Shown: piece after piece, positions 22,085-52,170 of the stretch | How the letters are laid out: each line of letters begins with the position of its first letter | How positions within the stretch are numbered: position 1 is the stretch's first letter | Virus record (IMG/VR): IMGVR_UViG_3300017771_000005 | Span: 1-63,394 of that record | Reading direction: 5' to 3' (one strand) | DNA: 63,394 nucleotides | From: a virus | Made by a program: the position numbers and the translations under genes | Notes under the pieces: generated by a model | The model's input: the letters and a program-made list of their open reading frames with translations, nothing else | What the model was told of the DNA's origin: nothing | The model's database searches: none

Positions 22085-23272
22085 TTAGCACTTCCAACGA
22101 CGACGGGCTTTACATACGGGTTTATCTGGAGTCTTAGAGCAATCAATGTTGTGCATATCTTGCTGACCCTTAGAGCGAGCGCAGAATGACTTACGGCGCT
22201 TTGCATCCTTGCTTCCTTTCTTGACTTTTCCAGTTACGGCAGTCTTTAGTTTGGAACCAGGATTTTCACGACGGTATGCAGCAACTGCTTTTTTGCTCAT
22301 GCCGTCAGTCTTATCACCTTTATTTACCTTTTGCCAATCTTCATTTTGCTTTTCTTCTCCAATATTTCCATTGTTCAGAAGATAATTCTTGGAATGTGAA
22401 TTTACAACCTGCATGATTGGTTGTCCTACACCACTTTTGGTAATTCTGTAAGACATAAGTCTTGAACCAGGATACACCTTCTGAATTTCAGATTCAACCT
22501 CTTCTCTAGTTGGCATAGAAGGTTGTGGGAAGAACATAGTCATTTGATATGACCTACCTTTCCAAGCAGCAACAACCATCAACAGATTACCATTGTCTGC
22601 TTCTAATCTTACTCTTTCGTCGATAGTGACTTCTTCTTTCGCTAAGTCACCAAATCTTTCGCGATGCTTTCTCAATGGCATTGATTTATCACGAAATTCT
22701 TTAGGAGATTCATAACCAGTTGGTTTAGAACCATCTTTAGTTGAAGATCTTCTACCTAATGTCTTTCTCTCGGAAGATTGTCCTAGTTTGGTTTTGTCTT
22801 TATATTGAGTGCCGAGTTTTTCATCAATCTCAATAGATTCATTGCTTTTTTCTTTTTTATCAAATAGAGGTTTGCCATCTTTACCCTTTAAAGTATAGAC
22901 ACCTTTCTTATTTCCCCCATTGAATGGTTTGGCATAAGCATATCCAGCATCAGTTTCTTTGCCACCATGAGATGCAAAACGATTCTCATCTAGTTCACTG
23001 AGGATCTTATCTACTAGTCTTTCTTCTTGTCTGATATTGGGTAATTGTACTTTTGCCTTTGTAGACATTTTTCTCTTTGCAACTTCAGCAGTTGCTTCAT
23101 CACCAGTATCTTGCGCTCTCTGAGTAATCTTCTCAGAACGCTGTACAGATCTAAACTTATCCTTATCTACATCCATAGATGGGGATGATTCAGATACGAG
23201 TGGGTCCGCCTTAATTAAGTCAATAAACTCGTAGGCAGCATTGCCAAACATGTCTTCAATCTTAACAGTCAT
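22085..23272 (-). CDS. Basic protein with DUF6321-like C-terminus
   Basis: This 395-aa, highly charged protein lies between gp16 and gp17. The middle part (residues about 100-215) is Lys/Gly/Ser-rich and low in complexity. A more ordered segment follows near 225-300 (LLMVVAAWKGRSYQMTMFFP). The C-terminal about 75 residues (AAYRRENPGSKLKTAVTGK, KRRKSFCARSKGQ, KPVCKARRRWKC) match a family found in marine phages that I know as DUF6321. Conserved Cys residues and a strong positive charge suggest DNA or RNA binding. An AATAAATA box (23299-23306) lies 27 nt upstream. Confidence 0.75.
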   Translation of the reverse strand: MTVKIEDMFGNAAYEFIDLIKADPLVSESSPSMDVDKDKFRSVQRSEKITQRAQDTGDEATAEVAKRKMSTKAKVQLPNIRQEERLVDKILSELDENRFASHGGKETDAGYAYAKPFNGGNKKGVYTLKGKDGKPLFDKKEKSNESIEIDEKLGTQYKDKTKLGQSSERKTLGRRSSTKDGSKPTGYESPKEFRDKSMPLRKHRERFGDLAKEEVTIDERVRLEADNGNLLMVVAAWKGRSYQMTMFFPQPSMPTREEVESEIQKVYPGSRLMSYRITKSGVGQPIMQVVNSHSKNYLLNNGNIGEEKQNEDWQKVNKGDKTDGMSKKAVAAYRRENPGSKLKTAVTGKVKKGSKDAKRRKSFCARSKGQQDMHNIDCSKTPDKPVCKARRRWKC

Positions 23273-25458: not shown

Positions 25459-27123
25459 TTATTTGATTACTCTATTGTTTCTAAATCTTGGGTATTTTGG
25501 ACCAGAGACTTCAGAATGCCTATTTTTATCTAGAACAGAGGGGTATGTTGACCCATGTTCTGGCCTCTTCTTCATGATGAAAAGATACCTGTTATTACTA
25601 TTACTTCCAAGAGCCTCATAACCACTGTGATTTTCAGTTCCCGTAGTTCCAACCTCAGATAAGGAAGATTCCTTCAAATATTGAAGTGCATCTGATTGTC
25701 TAAGTCTAGGTTCTTGCTCTGCGAGACAAGCAATAACACCACAAACCTGTGGACTTGCCATACTAGTCCCATTAATCGATGCTATGTAATAAGATGCACT
25801 CCTAGAATCTACAACTACAGATCCATAACTAGCAGCATCAGCACTAGTTTTATCGTAAACAGCAGAAATGATATCACTACCAGGTGCCCAAATATCTACT
25901 CTCCCACCCCAGTTACTGAAATTAGATTTGTATTCAGAAACTTTAGAACCAATCGATCCTACACAGATAACATTATCTGCTGAACCTGGAGTTGAACCTC
26001 TTGAGTGATATCTTGTAGATGAAGTATAATAAGAGTTATTATAATCACTACCACTAGAAGTATCACAATTCCAATAACTGTTTCCTGCGGATGAAATAAC
26101 AATAACACCATCATTGATAGCATCTTGAATATCAGCATCTACAGCAGCAACTCTAGCAGGAACTCTATAAAGATAGGTGTTAGTGGGAACTGGGACACCA
26201 TTGTCCTCCAATATCGCTTTCTTTTCTGAATCAGTGCCACTTAAAGAAGTAGTTGTTCCTCTATAAGTAACCCTAGTAATACTTGAAAGGCTGTCACTAT
26301 TATCGCCATAACTATATCCCCAACTATGATTAGTGATTGTTGGGTTTCTTCTGCCAGTTGTTGGATTTCTATCTTTATTTTTATGGAAATGTCTTAAGTA
26401 ATCCCATAACTTTTCATCCCAATCAGTAACACCAGATAATGTGTCACTAAACGCCATATTATAAATGTTGGCATTTCTTGCCCAACCTTGAGTATTACCA
26501 CATGCAGTTCCTGCTACATGAGTTCCGTGGTTACTGTTTGGTGATGCACCAGATGTACTATAAGTATAAGTGTCGTTGGTTGAATATCCTAATGTTGAAC
26601 TATACCTAAACCAATTAAATTGATTAACTCTACTACCGCCAGTACCATCAGTATTCTTAGCAAATTCTGGATGATCTGGATTAATATGCGAATCTACTAT
26701 AACAACATCAACATATTTTCCAGACGATGTTGTCATAATTTTTTGTGTGGTCTCAGTAGTTGAATCACTACCCCAGTTAGATACAGAATCTCCCTTAATG
26801 ACTCTATATAACCCCCAGTTCTTATCAGTGGATTCTAATGTTCCTGTGGTCTTTTCAAAATCTCCTGCTTGTTCCCACATTTCAGTTGGAACAAGTCCAC
26901 GATCTCTTGCTGGACGTTCACAAGCAATTACTCTAGAGTCGTTTCTAACTTGCCCTGCTTCCTCTTCAGTAAGCATGTAATGAGTATTACGACTAATCTG
27001 CCTCCGATGAACTAATTCAACCTCTCTGTCTGGAATATAGAGGTTCCCACCAGGAGTTTCTAGATCATCATAAAGACTTTGAAGATCTTCGTAAGATGTA
27101 CAAGTTACAATATATTCGTTCAT
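25459..27123 (-). CDS. Subtilisin-like serine protease (S8)
   Basis: This 554-aa subtilase has a complete catalytic triad: Asp144 in VVIVDSH, His202 in NHGTHVAGT and Ser454 in NGTSMASPQ. SSAGN carries the oxyanion Asn. The first about 70 residues (MNEYIVTCTS...THYMLTEEEAGQVRNDSRV) resemble an I9-type inhibitor prodomain. There is no signal peptide, so it acts in the infected cell or in the virion. It sits between the collagen-like fibre and tail-completion genes. The start overlaps the fibre stop as TGATG. Processing of fibre or virion proteins is an inference. Confidence 0.92.
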   Translation of the reverse strand: MNEYIVTCTSYEDLQSLYDDLETPGGNLYIPDREVELVHRRQISRNTHYMLTEEEAGQVRNDSRVIACERPARDRGLVPTEMWEQAGDFEKTTGTLESTDKNWGLYRVIKGDSVSNWGSDSTTETTQKIMTTSSGKYVDVVIVDSHINPDHPEFAKNTDGTGGSRVNQFNWFRYSSTLGYSTNDTYTYSTSGASPNSNHGTHVAGTACGNTQGWARNANIYNMAFSDTLSGVTDWDEKLWDYLRHFHKNKDRNPTTGRRNPTITNHSWGYSYGDNSDSLSSITRVTYRGTTTSLSGTDSEKKAILEDNGVPVPTNTYLYRVPARVAAVDADIQDAINDGVIVISSAGNSYWNCDTSSGSDYNNSYYTSSTRYHSRGSTPGSADNVICVGSIGSKVSEYKSNFSNWGGRVDIWAPGSDIISAVYDKTSADAASYGSVVVDSRSASYYIASINGTSMASPQVCGVIACLAEQEPRLRQSDALQYLKESSLSEVGTTGTENHSGYEALGSNSNNRYLFIMKKRPEHGSTYPSVLDKNRHSEVSGPKYPRFRNNRVIK

Positions 27124-29108
27124 CAGTCCTCCATCTTAAGCATGGTGAATGTGATTCCAATTCCTGCAGTACTTACGCCAGTTAGATTCTTCGTCTTTAT
27201 ATAAACAGTGGAGTCTACTGGACTGTTATTATTATATCCAACAACTGCGGGACTGAATAAGATAATATCGGATCCAGTGGTAACTGCTTCAGCAATGACG
27301 CCAGAACCCGGAGTTGGATCTTCTGTAATCAATCTGGAAACATCTGCTGTTCTACTTGCAGCATCACAGTAAATTGTTACCCACGCTGCTGTAGAGATAT
27401 TTACTTTTATGAGTGAATATGTTTTATAACCTTCAACTTCATGATTCTTGGATTCAGTAATTCCGAAAGATCCAGGATTAGTTGAAATCCCCTGACGTAC
27501 TCTTGACTCAATGATGTTGATTCTGCCACCCATATTGGGATGAGCAGTACATTGATAATATAAGGTACTAGGAGCATCAAATTGAACATCCCACGTCAGA
27601 GTGCCGCTAGTTACGTTGTTATTAGTAACTCCATCATTATATTCTGTTCCTGCAGAACCGTTTGGAGTGCTTTGAATCCTGAACGGATGTGCACCCATAT
27701 TATTGACAAACTGATACTCTTGACCACGAATTAACGTGATTGTTGGGTCATTCTCAGCACCAGTTAATCCCGGTCCAGTAAATGTGTAATTATCAATCCC
27801 ATCTGCACCAAGTGTCCATTTTGCAGTAATTAACTGAGTAGCAGTAAGTGTACCAGCAACACCAACGTCCCCAGTAATAGTGGAAACGCCGCTGACATTA
27901 TTAGCAAAAATTTCTCTACAACTTACAATTCCAACTACAAGTTTTTCTGGATTGTCAAATACCGCGTCCACAGAATTAATTACGGTTGTTCCAATACCAA
28001 CGCTTGCACTAGTTGAAATACCTGATGGGAAGTTAGAAGCGGGAATAAAGAATCCATTAGCGGGACCTAATGGGCCTTGTTGACCAGTACCACCTTGAAT
28101 GCCTTGATTTGCAAGACCCTGAGGACCTTGAATACCCTGGGTTGCTTGAGATCCCTGTAAACCCTGAACACCTTGATTAGAAAGACCTTGGAGACCCTGT
28201 GTGCCTTGAGTACCAGCGCCTGTGGTTCCTTGAGCACCAGTATTACCAGCAGGACCTCCACCACCCTGAATGCCGAGATTTCCTTGAATTCCTTGTCCCG
28301 TTAATCCCTGAAGACCCTGAACACCTTGAGGTCCGTCGTTTCCAGTAGGTCCAATTTGACCAAAAGTTCCTTGAGATCCAGTATTACCAATAATACCCTG
28401 GAAACCTTGTGCACCATATCCTAATTGACCTTGAACACCCTGAGGTCCATATGCACCCAAATCACCCTGAATTCCAAGTGGACCTTGGATACCTATATGA
28501 CCCTGAGTACCTTGAGTTGCTTGTAATCCTTGTGCTCCAAATACTCCTTGTGTACCTTGTCCAGCATTCTGTCCATCTCTACCCTGGACACCTTGAATAC
28601 CTTGAGTACCCTGATTTCCTTGAAGTCCTTGATGTCCTTGAATACCTAATGTTCCTTGAATACCTTGTGCTGCATATTGTCCTGCAATACCTTGAGCACC
28701 AGATGTATCACCACCATCTAACCAAACACTACCACCTTGATATACCCAAATGTGGTTTGTTAAATCATCAATTACTGCACTACCAATACCAGCGGTTGGA
28801 TAAGTAGCATTCAAAAATGTCTGAACATTTCCTGGAGGATTGATTGCAACATTTGCTTCGGTTGCAAATACATTAAAGTTAGAACCTATACGTCCTTGAA
28901 CACCTTGGAAACCCTGAATACCTTGAGAACCAGTATTACCCTTAATACCTTGGGCACCACCAAGAGTTCCACCAGTTAAGGTTGTACCATCACCGAAAGC
29001 GGTATAAATTTCATTAAAGTTATCATTAACCTTGCCAGCGCCGGCTTTCAGAGAATCACCAGTCCCGTCGTTATCAGTTGTACCAGTATTGATTATCTTT
29101 TTAGCCAT
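27123..29108 (-). CDS. Collagen-like fibre protein with cupredoxin-like domain
   Basis: This 661-aa protein starts MAKKIINTGTTDNDGTGDSL, a common fibre-anchor N-terminus in marine T4-like phages. About 280 residues of Gly-X-Y repeats follow, mostly GIQG/GTQG/GLQG, broken near residues 75-130 by a small non-collagen segment. The C-terminal part holds a predicted cupredoxin domain at about 449-534: NNMGAHPF (first His) and YYQCTAHPNMGG (Cys, His, Met). The final segment may be a trimer cap. I infer a trimeric virion fibre. A CTAAATA box (29144-29150) lies 35 nt upstream. Confidence 0.88.
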   Translation of the reverse strand: MAKKIINTGTTDNDGTGDSLKAGAGKVNDNFNEIYTAFGDGTTLTGGTLGGAQGIKGNTGSQGIQGFQGVQGRIGSNFNVFATEANVAINPPGNVQTFLNATYPTAGIGSAVIDDLTNHIWVYQGGSVWLDGGDTSGAQGIAGQYAAQGIQGTLGIQGHQGLQGNQGTQGIQGVQGRDGQNAGQGTQGVFGAQGLQATQGTQGHIGIQGPLGIQGDLGAYGPQGVQGQLGYGAQGFQGIIGNTGSQGTFGQIGPTGNDGPQGVQGLQGLTGQGIQGNLGIQGGGGPAGNTGAQGTTGAGTQGTQGLQGLSNQGVQGLQGSQATQGIQGPQGLANQGIQGGTGQQGPLGPANGFFIPASNFPSGISTSASVGIGTTVINSVDAVFDNPEKLVVGIVSCREIFANNVSGVSTITGDVGVAGTLTATQLITAKWTLGADGIDNYTFTGPGLTGAENDPTITLIRGQEYQFVNNMGAHPFRIQSTPNGSAGTEYNDGVTNNNVTSGTLTWDVQFDAPSTLYYQCTAHPNMGGRINIIESRVRQGISTNPGSFGITESKNHEVEGYKTYSLIKVNISTAAWVTIYCDAASRTADVSRLITEDPTPGSGVIAEAVTTGSDIILFSPAVVGYNNNSPVDSTVYIKTKNLTGVSTAGIGITFTMLKMED

Positions 29109-44355: not shown

Positions 44356-47300
44356 TTATAATGGGAATGATGTTACGACGTTTTGAACTGCACTATCATT
44401 AAACTCTGAACTAATATCATCAATATTAAGAACTCTATTTGAAATACATTCTGCAAAGTCTTGAAGAATTATAGAGTTAAAAATTAATTCATTTGACACT
44501 AATACGGAGTTAATTGTGAATGCAACTTCCGCTACCAAATCAAAATCAACGGTTTCTTCTAAATCAATTATACTTGATAGATCGTTGATTGTTACAATGT
44601 CACCTTCATTTTGGGATGTAGAAATTCCAGAGAACTCATCATCTTGAGATTCAATAACTAAATCGGAGAATTTCTTAAATCCAGAAGTATGATTTAAATC
44701 ACTAACTAATGGATTCCAATCTTCATATTGTACTTGAGAGTTTACTGCATAGGAGAAGTATTGATAATAATCATTATCATGAATACGTTGAGTTCTCTCA
44801 TTCAAGAAACCAACTTCATCTACAGATCCATCAGCAATAATTGCAGAGGCATTAATATCATAATATGCAATCGATTGAATAATGCTTTCAATTGTAGCAA
44901 TACTTCCAGAAGATTCACCATAAATTCGTTCACCTTTCTCAAATTTACTATTAGTAAAGAGTGACAAATACTCATTATTTTGATCCCAAAACTCCACAAC
45001 TCCAGTATTATTGTTTGTTGTTGAATTTATCGTTTCATTAGTGAAGAATATACCCTTTTTCAGGGTTATTGTGAAGGTAGGGAAGTATTTTTGTGGTACT
45101 ACTCTCCCAATATTTATCGCACTATTATAAACTCCTGGACCAGTTCCAATATCCAAATCTTTTAAACTATATGTGATAGTGGGATCACTTCCACCAATAT
45201 TTGGAACTCTATTTGTCACAGTAAACAATAGATACCCATAGTCTTGGGAATTAAACCCAAAATTACCAAAACTATTAACTTCTGCAGGATCAGAAGAGAC
45301 TGCGGTTTTTTCAACAATAATCTTATCACCGATTTCAAATGGGAAGTCGGAAAGATTGCTGTAACTGTTTGATAATGTTAACGTAACATCTCTAGTTATG
45401 GTATCATATGATATTGTTGAAATTCCAGCACCATTAGTATTATTGATTGCAAGGATTGTTGGAGTTACATCATATAAACCTTTAGTGTTTTTCTTAATGT
45501 CAACACCTTCATCATCATATACTAGTTCAACGTCATCAACAAGTTTTCCAGTGAATCCATCAAGAACAACTAAATCTGGTTTTGTGTTATATCCAATACC
45601 AGCAGTTTTGGGAGTAATGGAATCAAATGTTGATAGTGCTTCAACTCTAATAACTGTTGGTAAGAACGCTGTTGGTCTCAGAGTTTTATCAGAAGAGTAA
45701 TCAAAACCAATGTCTTGAATATCAATTGATACACCCTCTTTCAGTGCACCAATAGTAGTGCTCTGAGGTACAATGATTGCACCACTTCCTATGGTTCCAC
45801 CAATTGAAGTAACAGTTGGAAGAGTTGAGAACGATTTATTCGATTTAGAGATATCAAGAGTTCCTAGAGGTCCTCTAGCAGTCTTAGATGGAGTGCTGTA
45901 CTCGAAAGAACTGTCTGGTAGAGTATACTCGTCAACTTCAAGTTTATTTGGTACAACAAAAGTAAATGATCTCGTAGTAATTCCAGTTATATTATGAGAT
46001 CCATTTACATTACTATTCTCAATAATAATGCTGCTGTTATTGACGATATTATCATCATCAACGATAATTCTAGTTTTCGCTACTGGAATGCTTGAATTAT
46101 TGATTGGAGTTAATTTGTAGTATAGAATGTTTGGAGTTCCATCATTAATTAACAATTCAGTTTTTGATCCAGACTGTCCAACGTTTCCTGTAGGAGTAAC
46201 ATCAAAGGAATTTGGAGAATTTGGAGATCTCTTATACTCATCTCTGAAGAATGGGTCAGTATAAAGTTGGAATTCAAAACAAGATATTCCACCAAATGAT
46301 AGTGAAGAACTGGAAGTATCAAATACAACCTTTTGATTTCTAATCGCTTTGATTGGTGGATTAACAAAGAACAGTTGTGCTGCTTGTTGACTTCCTATGG
46401 ATACTGGTGTTGGAGTTGCTTTGGTAGAATTATAATATGTTTCAGATAGTTGAATTTCATTGGAGTTTTTAACAATTACGAAATAAATTTTATTGTCTTC
46501 CAATCCAGTAGATGGAGTTGTTGCCTTATAAACAACTTTTTGACCAGTGACAAGAGAATGTCCAGTTAAAGTGATTGAATTTGTAGCAACAGTAATTGCA
46601 GATGCTACAATAGTAATAGGATCAAATAGTGTTCTGGAAAGTGCATCATTATATGAAACGAATGAAGTGGTAGTAATACCAGATTCAACATCAAGAATAA
46701 TAGAGTCACCGACTTTCAGTAGATGATCATCTGTTGTATCAACGGTAATTTTATTTTCAATGACACTTGCCTGAAGAATATCAGTAGAAGGGAATTCGGT
46801 CAGGAATCTATGCTTAGTTCCCGTTCCGATACCAGCAAGATATAGGATATTATTATCATTGGTTCCAATACCAACATAATTACCATCTGACCCAAGACCA
46901 ACTAGATTAGAGGAGATACCTACTGTATTTCTAGTGAATCTAACTGCATAGATATCTGATAGGGTTGATAAATTAAAACTTGAAGTTGAGTTGACTCCAA
47001 CAGCAATTGAAGAACCACCATAAGAATTATAATCTAACTTATCACCAGTTCTTAATCCATGATTTGGCAAATAAATTGCTCTTGTTGGGATAGTAATGAA
47101 TGTTGCACCAACTCCAGGATTGCTGAGATAAATTGTACTGGTAATTCCAGGACCATGAGTTTGACCCAATCCTAAAGCATCCTTGGGATCAAAGTAATTT
47201 GTAATGTCAGGAACAAATGTATTATTATTATCAACATTAATGATAAACTTTCTAGATTTTTCAGTCAGTTTATCATATGGGTAATGTTGATCGATGAGAC

Positions 47301-50300
47301 CAGAAATATTAGCAATATTCCTTTCAACTCTGATTCTATGATTTGCTTTATCAACATTTAATACTCTGATAGTCTCAGCACCAATAGTATACTGATCATC
47401 GGGCAGTAAATACTGATAATCTGTGTTGTAGATATTGAAGAATGTGACGATGCCAGTATTTGCAATAGCATCAACATTTTCTCTTAAGGTTAAACTCTTA
47501 CTTAATGTTATAATAGAGTAAGTGTTATCGATAAATGAGTTTGCATTCTCAAGATCCTTAATCTCTACAACGTCATTTGTAGTAAATCCATGTGGAACAC
47601 TGGTCAATCCGACTAGAGTATTCTGTCGTTCAACTGCAGGGAAGAAATATACATCTTCAATCTCTTCAACAGAACTTGTTACTGTAGAGATTGTCTTTCC
47701 TTTTACGCTAGAAATAATTGCGGAAGATTTATTAATTCCAGATTCATCTTGGTAAATTACAGAGTCGCCAACTCTATATCCATCTCCACGGGAAGTAAAA
47801 TCAAAACTTTCTATCCCAGAACGTTGAACTGTTTTAATTTCATTCACCTGTTCTCTTACTAGAGCAGGGTTAATATAGAAATCATATCTAGAACTAGAAT
47901 CTTCCTCACCATATGGTTGAGTATTTCTGAAAACATTTAGTGTAGTAATATCTAAAGATGATTGCTCAGAATCAACATCATAATTGAAAGCAATTGGAAC
48001 AGACTTATACTTATTTCCAATGAAATATGGGAATACTGGTTTCTTCGCTCCTTGGAAAAATGAGGACGAATCGATCGTATCATTTATTGTCGTAAAATAT
48101 GCATAAGTACCATTTGGAAATTCTGGAGTTACGCAATATCTACCATTATATTCATCCAAATATGTGTTAGTTCCATCATTAGTTGCAACGTACTTATAAT
48201 CTTCTACAAAGAAACCATTAGGGAATCCACTTGGTCTATCTGAAGATGGGTTTAGAACATATCCAGATTTGAGTTGAACAACTGATCCGGGGGTATTTAA
48301 TCCAGAGAAACCATATGGTCCATATATTGGGTTTCCGTCGTATGCATATCCAAGTATTGGGGAGTGATACAGATTAGTAGTATCAGGATCAGTATCATTA
48401 TCGATATCATCTCTATAAATTCTAACACCATTAGTATCAATCTTGCTTCCTTTTGTGATAGATCTTAGTGCTCTAGATCCATATAAGTGACAATACTCAA
48501 TCCCATATTTTCTAGAATATGAAATAGAAGGAAAAGAATCATCAGAGACAACTCGCTTAGAATCGATCATCCTTTCAACTTCATTGACAGTCCATCTCTG
48601 GATTCCAGATTCAAAAATTACACCTTGTCCAGTTTCACTTACGGTGAAGAATGTATTATCTTGCTTATATCCTTTTCCTCCGCGAACAACAGTTACAGAA
48701 TCAAGTTCATTATTTTTAATGACAGCAGTTAATATTGCTCCCTGACCAGTAGCACTTTCGATGGTAATTTTGGGAGTTGTTGTATAATCTTTACCTTTTG
48801 AAATAATAATGACTGTAACAATCTCTCCGTTTGCAGATACAATCGGCGCAATCTGTGCTCCAGTTCCACTTCTCAAAGTGATTTCTGGTTGTCTTTGGAA
48901 ATTTAGAATGGATTTGGATCCATAGTCACCACCATTTGCACTTAGATTTACTTTTTTGATTGATCCTTCAAATTTTGGTTGAACTTCAACATTAAAGTTT
49001 TGTGCTGTTTCTGTTGACAGTCCAACTAAACCAGTAACACTAACTTTAATTGGTGGATAATTAAATGTGTGATTTCCACCAGAAGCACCAGTAATATCAA
49101 CATGCTGTTTTGTATCATAATAGAAATCTGACCCAATTCCAGATCCACCAATTTCGGATAACTTAAAATTATCTAAATCAAGTGCAGTTACATAGTATGA
49201 AGATCTAATAGTAGTAAGTCCAGCAATACTAGACCCACTCACTGGGATATAATCAATAATTTCTCCGGATGCAAATCCATGATCTTCATATGAAATTACA
49301 TTTGTTGCTGTTTTAATTCCAGAGTCAGCGACTACAATCTTATTATTGGTATATCCATCTCCCGGATTAATTATATTGATAGAGGTTAAGAATTTTTTCT
49401 TTGTTATCGATGTAATAAGTTGTACACCAGTTCCATATGATGTTAAATCAACCTTATTAGTTCCAGAAACAGCATCTGCAAAAGTATTGTGTAGAGTTAT
49501 TGTCTTTGATCCAGTAACATTGACAAAATATTCAGATAAACTGACAAGACCACCAATTACAGTCTCAGTTTGGTTGTCATATACAATTCTTTCGCCAGTT
49601 TTGAACTTATGATTCTTGATGAATACAATTTCATCATCTGTGAGGTCAAGTGCACCTAAAGAAGAACTAGCATCAAACTCCTCACTGTAAATTTGCTCTT
49701 GTAGACTCGGTTCTGCCGATGCTCCAGTACCATTTCCACCAGAAATGTTGATAACAGGATCAGAAAGGAAGTCAGAACCAATATCAACGATTTCAATTCT
49801 ATCGAGTGAACCTATTACAGTAACTGTAGCAGTTGCACCAGATCCAACAGGGTCAGAAACAATCAAATCTGGTGGATCAATGACATCATATCCAGATCCA
49901 GGTTTAGAAACTTCAATTTTTTCTAATTTTCCATAAAAAATTGCATCAGATGACTTATAATTGCAAATTTCTACTCCATTTTGAAGAATACCAATTTGTC
50001 CTGGTTCAGTTTCTACGACATTTTCATCAAAAGATGGTTCTACCAACTTTCTGACGAGTCTTTGTGACTCCAATTCAGTCTTTTCTAGGTTTTCATCAGC
50101 AAATTTGAGTGGATATAACTCTTGATTGGTTGCTGAAGTCGTAAAAGTGATTAAAAACTTGGCCGATTGCTTAGCAATGGTAATTGCGGACGATCCTTTC
50201 TCAACTTCCTTCTCAATTTGATAGATATTATCTCTACTTCTAGATAATTTAAACTTATCTGCATCAATTTTATAGACAAAATAAATTCCCCTCTCAAGAT

Positions 50301-52170
50301 TAAGTGAATTTGTAGTGGTTGGGGGGGCATAAACTACAACTTCACCAGTTAGTAGTCCGTGATCAGTGACAGTTATAGTCTGAACTGCATCAATATATGC
50401 AATATACTCGGAATCCGGATCATTTGTGGTCTTTTCATCTACATTTGAGATGTCTACATCAAAAATAGTCTCATAATTTGTGATGTTTAGACTCTGAATG
50501 TTATAATTTGGGATGGATGATGAAGTAACATATACAGTTTCATCATAATCAGTATAAACATTCTGTACGTTTGCAGAATATTTGGTAGATTCTGTAAAAA
50601 TTGCACTCTTTGTCTTAGCGACTTGCTTTCTTATCTTATAGAAAGCACCCAAATTGACTAAGGATGAAGTAACAAAATTTAAAGTGTTATTTGATGCCTT
50701 CTGATTTACTGTTCCTACTCTGGTAACACCGTCGGAACCAATCAATTCCACACTATCACCAACAACAATGTTGTTGTCACTAGTTGTTATGACTCTATAT
50801 TGTCCTCCAGGACTTACTTGAAGCGTAATTTCTGCAACATCATAAGTCGTTGAGACATTAAATATCCAATTTGTCGTTTTTACATCTTCAGTTACTCTTC
50901 CAAGAGAACTCAGTTTAATCCTATTTCTCTTTCTGAAGAGGTTATTTGGTCTAACAACGGTAAGATCCGATAATACACCAAGAACTTGTACTCTGATTTC
51001 GGATCCATCATCATCCAAACCAAAACAATAGGTGTCCAGTGAGATTTCTTGTCCCACATCAATGTCTGGGACGTTGCTACACCCATAAAATTCAGTATAT
51101 GACGTATCTGTGTATGAAATATATACGTCTTGATTATTACTTCTTGCTCTTAAAACTCCAGATTTTGGAAATCCAATGGTCGTGTCTACAGAAAAGGTAT
51201 CAGAATTCTTATTTACATTTTGAGTGACATAAGTTTTTGGATGCTGTTCGAATCTTCTTACTAAATTTCCTCTAACATCAATATCTTTATTGAAATCAAA
51301 GTCCAAACTAAGTCTATAATAAGTTTCATTTCCCCTTGAAATAGTTTCTACATTAGCAACTGATGCTGAAATTGTATCATAATTATCATCATCTACTTGA
51401 GATAATGTCTTATATTGTAATTTTGTAACATCTCCTTGGATTTCTTTTACGACTATCTTTTCGGAAATCTTATATTCTGAATCAGAAGATCTAATTGTAA
51501 AATCACTAGGACGGATAATAGTAACATCCTTGCCATATATTGATTTAAATAGGATTTTGAACGCAGAATCTGTACCCTTTGCGGAGTAAAAATCGCTAGA
51601 TTGCTTTACAAAGACATTAGCGTTCAGACCAGAGAAAAAGTCTCTACCTTCAAATCCAGGAGAAAACTGCTTCTTAAGTTTAAATATAAACTGCTTTAGA
51701 AAAATTAAACTTAAATTTGATACTTTTGTGCCTGAGGTGTGAGATTCTCCACTAGTAGACTCAAAAATTAGGTCCGATTGAATAGCATTTTCTTTATATC
51801 CAGTGATTCCACTAAATCCTCGGGAACAATCATAGAATGTAGTATCATCTTTAGACTCATAAGATATAATTTCACTGTCAATTTGCAATAATCCATTACT
51901 GGTTGGGAAACCTTCGGTGCTAGAAACAGTTATTGTAGCATCAACTTTATCAATTTTTGCACTTAATGTAGTAAAATCAACAGCACTAAAAATTACATCA
52001 AGGTCAATGTAAGAATCTAAGTTCTCAACAATATCTAAAGGTTTACCTTGAGAACCAAGGGAAACATAATATTGCTTAATAAACTGAACAAATAAAGGAT
52101 ACTCATCCCTAACAAAGTCTGGAATTTGACTTTGAATTATTTGATTTACGCTAACCTTTCTAATTGACAT
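44356..52170 (-). CDS. Giant gp7-like baseplate wedge protein (2604 aa)
   Basis: The N-terminal 250 residues (LFVQFIKQYYVSLGSQGKPL, then FLKQFIFKLKKQF and VKQSSDFYSAKGTDSAFKIL) resemble the C-terminal half of T4 gp7 (FFESRSYDFYSTKGIEASYK). Its position after gp6 is also that of gp7. The remaining about 2300 residues are beta-type repeats: GxGY units, EIISY-type units and repeated HGxxTGxxVxY units. A YHYH-like domain lies near 1245-1350 (SPILGYAYDGNPIYGPYG, NGRYCVTPEFPNGTYAYF). The C-terminus returns to a helical/acidic segment. The tail is likely a surface-exposed fibre extending from the wedge. Confidence 0.82.
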   Translation of the reverse strand: MSIRKVSVNQIIQSQIPDFVRDEYPLFVQFIKQYYVSLGSQGKPLDIVENLDSYIDLDVIFSAVDFTTLSAKIDKVDATITVSSTEGFPTSNGLLQIDSEIISYESKDDTTFYDCSRGFSGITGYKENAIQSDLIFESTSGESHTSGTKVSNLSLIFLKQFIFKLKKQFSPGFEGRDFFSGLNANVFVKQSSDFYSAKGTDSAFKILFKSIYGKDVTIIRPSDFTIRSSDSEYKISEKIVVKEIQGDVTKLQYKTLSQVDDDNYDTISASVANVETISRGNETYYRLSLDFDFNKDIDVRGNLVRRFEQHPKTYVTQNVNKNSDTFSVDTTIGFPKSGVLRARSNNQDVYISYTDTSYTEFYGCSNVPDIDVGQEISLDTYCFGLDDDGSEIRVQVLGVLSDLTVVRPNNLFRKRNRIKLSSLGRVTEDVKTTNWIFNVSTTYDVAEITLQVSPGGQYRVITTSDNNIVVGDSVELIGSDGVTRVGTVNQKASNNTLNFVTSSLVNLGAFYKIRKQVAKTKSAIFTESTKYSANVQNVYTDYDETVYVTSSSIPNYNIQSLNITNYETIFDVDISNVDEKTTNDPDSEYIAYIDAVQTITVTDHGLLTGEVVVYAPPTTTNSLNLERGIYFVYKIDADKFKLSRSRDNIYQIEKEVEKGSSAITIAKQSAKFLITFTTSATNQELYPLKFADENLEKTELESQRLVRKLVEPSFDENVVETEPGQIGILQNGVEICNYKSSDAIFYGKLEKIEVSKPGSGYDVIDPPDLIVSDPVGSGATATVTVIGSLDRIEIVDIGSDFLSDPVINISGGNGTGASAEPSLQEQIYSEEFDASSSLGALDLTDDEIVFIKNHKFKTGERIVYDNQTETVIGGLVSLSEYFVNVTGSKTITLHNTFADAVSGTNKVDLTSYGTGVQLITSITKKKFLTSINIINPGDGYTNNKIVVADSGIKTATNVISYEDHGFASGEIIDYIPVSGSSIAGLTTIRSSYYVTALDLDNFKLSEIGGSGIGSDFYYDTKQHVDITGASGGNHTFNYPPIKVSVTGLVGLSTETAQNFNVEVQPKFEGSIKKVNLSANGGDYGSKSILNFQRQPEITLRSGTGAQIAPIVSANGEIVTVIIISKGKDYTTTPKITIESATGQGAILTAVIKNNELDSVTVVRGGKGYKQDNTFFTVSETGQGVIFESGIQRWTVNEVERMIDSKRVVSDDSFPSISYSRKYGIEYCHLYGSRALRSITKGSKIDTNGVRIYRDDIDNDTDPDTTNLYHSPILGYAYDGNPIYGPYGFSGLNTPGSVVQLKSGYVLNPSSDRPSGFPNGFFVEDYKYVATNDGTNTYLDEYNGRYCVTPEFPNGTYAYFTTINDTIDSSSFFQGAKKPVFPYFIGNKYKSVPIAFNYDVDSEQSSLDITTLNVFRNTQPYGEEDSSSRYDFYINPALVREQVNEIKTVQRSGIESFDFTSRGDGYRVGDSVIYQDESGINKSSAIISSVKGKTISTVTSSVEEIEDVYFFPAVERQNTLVGLTSVPHGFTTNDVVEIKDLENANSFIDNTYSIITLSKSLTLRENVDAIANTGIVTFFNIYNTDYQYLLPDDQYTIGAETIRVLNVDKANHRIRVERNIANISGLIDQHYPYDKLTEKSRKFIINVDNNNTFVPDITNYFDPKDALGLGQTHGPGITSTIYLSNPGVGATFITIPTRAIYLPNHGLRTGDKLDYNSYGGSSIAVGVNSTSSFNLSTLSDIYAVRFTRNTVGISSNLVGLGSDGNYVGIGTNDNNILYLAGIGTGTKHRFLTEFPSTDILQASVIENKITVDTTDDHLLKVGDSIILDVESGITTTSFVSYNDALSRTLFDPITIVASAITVATNSITLTGHSLVTGQKVVYKATTPSTGLEDNKIYFVIVKNSNEIQLSETYYNSTKATPTPVSIGSQQAAQLFFVNPPIKAIRNQKVVFDTSSSSLSFGGISCFEFQLYTDPFFRDEYKRSPNSPNSFDVTPTGNVGQSGSKTELLINDGTPNILYYKLTPINNSSIPVAKTRIIVDDDNIVNNSSIIIENSNVNGSHNITGITTRSFTFVVPNKLEVDEYTLPDSSFEYSTPSKTARGPLGTLDISKSNKSFSTLPTVTSIGGTIGSGAIIVPQSTTIGALKEGVSIDIQDIGFDYSSDKTLRPTAFLPTVIRVEALSTFDSITPKTAGIGYNTKPDLVVLDGFTGKLVDDVELVYDDEGVDIKKNTKGLYDVTPTILAINNTNGAGISTISYDTITRDVTLTLSNSYSNLSDFPFEIGDKIIVEKTAVSSDPAEVNSFGNFGFNSQDYGYLLFTVTNRVPNIGGSDPTITYSLKDLDIGTGPGVYNSAINIGRVVPQKYFPTFTITLKKGIFFTNETINSTTNNNTGVVEFWDQNNEYLSLFTNSKFEKGERIYGESSGSIATIESIIQSIAYYDINASAIIADGSVDEVGFLNERTQRIHDNDYYQYFSYAVNSQVQYEDWNPLVSDLNHTSGFKKFSDLVIESQDDEFSGISTSQNEGDIVTINDLSSIIDLEETVDFDLVAEVAFTINSVLVSNELIFNSIILQDFAECISNRVLNIDDISSEFNDSAVQNVVTSFPL

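Follow-up and report, generated by a model that had tools for sequence, protein, structure and literature searches.

The collagen-like fibre protein of a T4-like virus contains a domain that almost certainly assumes a cupredoxin fold and that is probably a copper-binding module. All four residues predicted to hold the copper are kept across related phages, which implies that the virions of these phages may carry copper. The fold and the type of site were already known; what appears to be new is their conserved place in phage tail-fibre proteins. Judging from search listings, the open-licence literature holds no account of phage virions with a cupredoxin domain, and some of the papers there that mention cyanophages, copper and baseplates together use the word 'copper' only for microscope grids or film.

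The stretch of DNA analyzed (hereafter the window, 63,394 bases) comes from a T4-like virus whose record names no host, and from its relatives we infer that the virus is a cyanophage. It shows Pfam matches to the major capsid protein Gp23, the prohead protease S77 and UvsW_N, PHROG matches to portal, sheath, terminase and baseplate wedge proteins, and also encodes the tail-sheath stabiliser gp15 and a neck protein. The fibre ORF (Table 1) matches PHROG 677, the 'baseplate wedge tail fiber protein connector' family (E 3e-52). Its N-terminal anchor is recognized by the T4_gp9_10_N model (E 4.3e-8; 33.9 bits, above the gathering score of 25) and, as the initial annotation had held, the fibre is collagen-like, with the collagen model matching in five stretches (E 2.5e-20), the best of which is aa 137-188. 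That annotation had also placed a cupredoxin-like domain at 27510-27760; the domain does lie there, but its extent is somewhat larger, about 27501-27833. The roughly 125-residue domain that follows it matches a family annotated 'unknown function', and a scan of its own recovered relatives only on the contig of locus L001; the predicted model of fibre aa 405-661 was poor (pLDDT 63.7), below the quality for a fold search. Elsewhere in the window, a protein of 2604 aa that contains a YHYH domain (PF14240, E 2.5e-21) is encoded at 44356-52170 on the minus strand within the block of T4-like structural genes, and the last 90 residues encoded at 22085-23272 (minus strand), which the terminase and gp15 adjoin, match the C-terminal ends of several PHROGs of unknown function.

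Table 1. Features of the fibre gene and of the protease gene next to it, in window coordinates
Feature	Position	Strand	Evidence
Collagen-like fibre protein, T4 gp9/10 type, 661 aa	27123-29108	-	PF07880, PF01391, PHROG 677
N-terminal T4 gp9/10-like anchor, aa 1-55	28944-29108	-	PF07880, aa 3-53
Collagen-like repeats, main block, about aa 137-350	28059-28700	-	PF01391 and sequence
Cupredoxin-like domain, aa 426-536	27501-27833	-	AlphaFold2, Foldseek, VIA-align, profile matches
His474, predicted first Cu ligand, in HPF motif	27687-27689	-	Alignments, CueO comparison
Cys520, predicted Cu ligand	27549-27551	-	Conservation
His523, predicted Cu ligand	27540-27542	-	Conservation
Met526, predicted axial Cu ligand	27531-27533	-	Conservation; Gln instead in one related clade
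C-terminal beta-rich domain, aa 537-661	27126-27500	-	PHROG 15343, E 2.9e-26
Subtilisin-like protease, directly downstream of the fibre gene, one-base overlap	25459-27123	-	PF00082, E 1.1e-28

The sequence FVNNMGAHPFRIQ begins at residue 467 of the fibre ORF, with YYQCTAHPNMGG following from residue 517. The full ligand set that had been claimed for this region, a His followed by Cys, His and Met, is present as His474, Cys520, His523 and Met526, and thus in the order of type-1 copper sites with the last three residues on one loop of the sequence. Across the 35 ORFs of the window (18,342 aa) the pattern C-x2-H-x2-M occurs once, in the fibre, against 0.06 occurrences expected from shuffling, and the full H...C-x2-H-x2-M pattern likewise occurs once against 0.07 expected. 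Judged by these sequence counts, the ligand motif is not due to chance.

An AlphaFold2 model of the domain, built on an alignment of 42 sequences (A1, described below), is all beta with a pLDDT of 93.7 and a pTM of 0.87, and the predicted structure is a Greek-key beta sandwich, as in the cupredoxin superfamily. The comparison with plastocyanin and other cupredoxins that the initial annotation had called for bore out its reading of the domain, as the solved structures matched are cupredoxins. With the domain model as query against the PDB, Foldseek returned 52 matches that pass 1e-3, with rusticyanin at the top (E 2.6e-5) and copper nitrite reductase, CueO, laccases, plastocyanin and amicyanin below it. 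VIA-align superposed the model on the N-terminal domain of 2dv6_A with a Z of 11.6 and an rmsd of 1.9 A over 95 aligned residues, and on rusticyanin (2cal) with a Z of 10.4. Although rusticyanin and this N-terminal cupredoxin domain of the Hyphomicrobium nitrite reductase are the best fold matches, they share only 16-19% identity with the fibre domain and their ligand loop differs from its own.

When compared with the sequences of PDB chains, the A1 profile matched plastocyanin (1e-4) and amicyanin (1.3e-3). The domain falls below every curated plastocyanin or amicyanin cut-off, scoring 18.7 bits (E 0.0024) against the gathering score of 21.2 for PF00127 (Copper-bind), 20.0 against 110.2 bits for TIGR02657 (amicyanin) and 13.1 against 87.85 bits for TIGR02656 (plastocyanin), and it therefore appears to be a new cupredoxin variant in the virion. 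Its Cys-x2-His-x2-Met spacing had been regarded as a departure from plastocyanin; it does differ from the Cys-x2-His-x4-Met of the plastocyanin loop, but it is not odd, being equal to that of the amicyanin loop. Consistent with such spacing, the NCBIfam amicyanin match covers the loop (aa 78-105 of the domain), and PDB entry 2vmj carries a CTPHPFM loop graft. Besides the loop, amicyanin (TIGR02657; PDB 1aac, 1sf3) shares with the domain a profile match of 28-107 to 31-104, whereas amicyanin is a soluble electron carrier and the window domain is part of a fibre. The first ligand of amicyanin stands in a His-Asn context, where the fibre domain has His-Pro.

In the alignment of the A1 profile with plastocyanin the ligand His of plastocyanin lies two residues off His474, so that His474 could be a non-ligand residue. 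A local hhalign comparison of A1 with domain 3 of Escherichia coli CueO places His474-Pro-Phe on His443-Pro-Phe, in which His443 is presumably the first type-1 copper ligand; this match is weak (probability 1.6%, P 0.03), and a global hhalign comparison gave an uninformative alignment. The CueO alignment lends support, short of proof, to His474 as the first ligand, and with Pro instead of Asn after this His the second shell would resemble that of multicopper oxidases. CueO and the fibre domain both have HPF where the first type-1 His stands, but the fibre domain, unlike multicopper oxidases, is without the type-2/3 histidines (HPFRIQ for HPFHIHG). A multicopper oxidase as such was rejected, as PF07731 has no match in the window and HPFRIQ does not contain the two His.

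Of 47 candidate rows, 41 entered alignment A1 beside the window; the selection relied in part on patterns that include the ligands, and divergent copies were omitted. In A1, 8 positions are invariant in 42/42 rows, all four ligands included. The other six rows are the second copies at L043 (L043:1771) and L045 (L045:5119) and four interrupted-form rows from L056, L059 and L060; L047-L050 had been dropped before the candidate stage, which brings to ten the loci or copies omitted as degenerate, interrupted or poorly matching. A less selected sample consists of 22 phage records taken down the tblastn rankings, a choice that made no use of the ligand motif. Whole-record searches detected the domain in 22/22 of these, and in 21 of them a complete domain, 25-69% identical to that of the window, keeps all four ligands, as would be expected had the initial annotation read the ligands correctly. 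In these 21 domains 9 of 107 columns are invariant, with all four ligands among them (chance 2.4e-5). S-CAM1 (L089), the 22nd record, has an interrupted domain and was therefore not part of the column count; HPFEIR and YWYQCTAHPNM can still be read in the halves. In S-SKS1 two residues are inserted between Cys and His, both of which are kept, and RB11-B, also among the sampled records, has in addition a further copy that lacks the site (L114). In L060 (3305-5905), L049-L060 and S-CAM1, cupredoxin-like domains occur in tandem, and each seems to be split by about 130 residues inserted after the strand-6 region and before the Cys-His-Met loop.

With degenerate copies as seeds, searches uncovered two large clades that keep the surrounding LYYQ and GVTNN motifs and in which the copper site is absent, the equivalents of His474, Cys520 and His523 having been lost together while the domain was retained. 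This persistence of the domain without the site implies that not every such domain needs copper to fold. It also favors the notion that the cupredoxin fold is a plain beta-sandwich spacer whose inherited ligand set no longer binds metal; yet a decayed site would drift, whereas the four ligands are kept exactly in the BLAST-found records over the whole range of identities noted above, and we consider the spacer account rather improbable. Selection on a metal site in the fibre domain, by contrast, we regard as very likely.

Among 279 matches, the 231 complete ones were counted (48 partial matches being left out), giving 150 distinct domains. Of these, 90 have the first His together with Cys and His (86 with Met and 4 with Gln), 56 lack the first His and likewise Cys and His, and 4 keep the first His without Cys and His; Cys and His without the first His were seen in 0/150. 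The clade of L045 and L220-L222 retains the first His and has lost Cys, His and Met. This pattern of joint loss among the sequences suggests that the first His is part of the same site. On a tree built from 92 of the 150 rows, thinned at 85% identity, a sign test for joint loss gave p 0.5 and is not significant, because the tree offers only 3 independent contrasts. In L043 (1771-2181), L223, L226 and L227, Gln replaces the axial Met while His, Cys and His are kept; Gln as an axial ligand is a feature of stellacyanin. The sets L114 (RB11-B), L122-L162 and L163-L218 are large families of the domain in phage proteins and nearly all ligand-free, with L160 keeping the ligands. For the second copy at L004 no relative was found outside its own contig.

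A tblastn search (E 1e-3) of 50,697 phage records, of the kind that had been suggested for marine phage fibres, detected the domain in 354, nearly all of them cyanophages, 347 being named Synechococcus phage, Cyanophage or Prochlorococcus phage. Many of the proteins bearing it are annotated as gp9 baseplate wedge tail fibre connector, with the domain forming the end of the protein, and others as 'long tail fiber proximal subunit' or 'tail spike protein'. In a podovirus the domain occurs in a protein beside the tail fibre gene, and a copy with 25% identity is present in a freshwater actinobacterial phage. The gp9 connector of cyanomyoviruses (PHROG 677) has the domain C-terminally, at positions 306-410 of 412 (E 4.6e-38); the window protein differs from it in adding the collagen shaft and a further C-terminal domain, and the name of this family makes no mention of copper or cupredoxin. 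A search for plasmid relatives found none. A scan of genome contigs with ligand-bearing patterns yielded 7 loci, on six MAG contigs and one Prochlorococcus contig, and no clear cellular source of the domain; at least one of them, L061, looks viral, as the fibre C-terminal domain and the protease are present there as well.

The subtilisin-like protease encoded next to the fibre recurs with the domain. PHROG 9158 (696 positions) combines the protease at 6-571 with the domain at 590-695, both are found in a single ORF in ACG-2014e (L109) and in L063, and in the first viral scan at least 16 of 60 loci have a relative of the protease inside the fetched flank, a minimum given how short the flanks are. 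A working relation of the protease and the fibre domain is likely.

The metal of the predicted site is likely to be copper. His-Cys-His-Met sites bind several metals in vitro, and the site might thus hold another soft metal (Zn, Ag or a Cu(I) store) or scavenge copper rather than serve a structural role; but the Met axial ligand and the amicyanin-type loop indicate Cu, no copper-handling family is present among the annotated window proteins, and we rate such a use as quite improbable. For copper as the metal, the fibre site would bind one ion per chain. The domain would fold metal-free in the host cytosol, where free copper would be scarce and, virion assembly being cytosolic, the copper would be taken up once the virion is outside the host cell. 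The bound copper could then rigidify the domain. T4 gp9 holds the long tail fibre, and as the domain is last in gp9-type proteins, copper there would stabilise the joint that links the baseplate or shaft to the next part. Of the roles considered, a mainly structural or stabilising one is the most likely, though its odds are somewhat below even. With still more reserve, we tentatively propose that most marine T4-like cyanophages and some podoviruses carry gp9 or fibre trimers with type-1 copper, loaded after release, which may lock the tail-fibre joint or, during infection, act as a redox or metal switch.

Metals in phage tail fibres have a precedent in the HxH iron sites of T4 gp37 and alterophage R22Y (PMC11705849); there the HxH motifs hold octahedral iron, whereas the window fibre has a predicted mononuclear His2CysMet site within one domain. 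Fibres of marine phages that bear HxH iron sites have been proposed to engage receptors for iron on the host (PMC11705849), and by analogy the fibre could present copper to copper-handling proteins of the host surface, as a metal delivery device or receptor mimic, the equivalent for copper of the iron 'Ferrojan horse' that has been proposed. The location of the domain in tail-fibre and baseplate proteins would suit this, but in most gp9 copies the annotation places it at the baseplate joint and not at the tip. Moreover, type-1 copper sites are partly buried, and we consider metal delivery unlikely.

The initial annotation had also imagined the copper site touching host redox surfaces, for which we found no support. 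A related idea is that reductants at the host surface switch the copper state and trigger a rearrangement of fibre or baseplate, possibly explaining light-dependent cyanophage adsorption. Such adsorption exists and is strain specific (PMC7112961, PMC7238727), and P-HM2, described as failing to adsorb in the dark (PMC7112961), has at least 3 intact copies of the domain. P-SSP7, which infects in the dark, shows 0 domain matches. On the other side, S-PM2, the classic light-dependent phage, has no domain match at E 0.1, which disfavors the link to light, and the comparison spans n=3 phages. We know of no redox partner for the fibre domain, and a redox sensor appears highly improbable. As a general account, the link to light-dependent adsorption was rejected (S-PM2 0, P-SSP7 0 and P-HM2 3 matches).

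If copper is bound as we favor, a large and abundant group of ocean viruses would have a blue-copper-type site in the particle itself, and copper would join iron as the second metal of phage tail fibres. The virions would then hold a stock of a trace metal that is both scarce and toxic, and copper chelation would offer a handle on the adsorption and stability of cyanophages. Binding of copper would also provide a function for domains currently labelled just 'baseplate wedge tail fiber connector' or 'hypothetical protein'.
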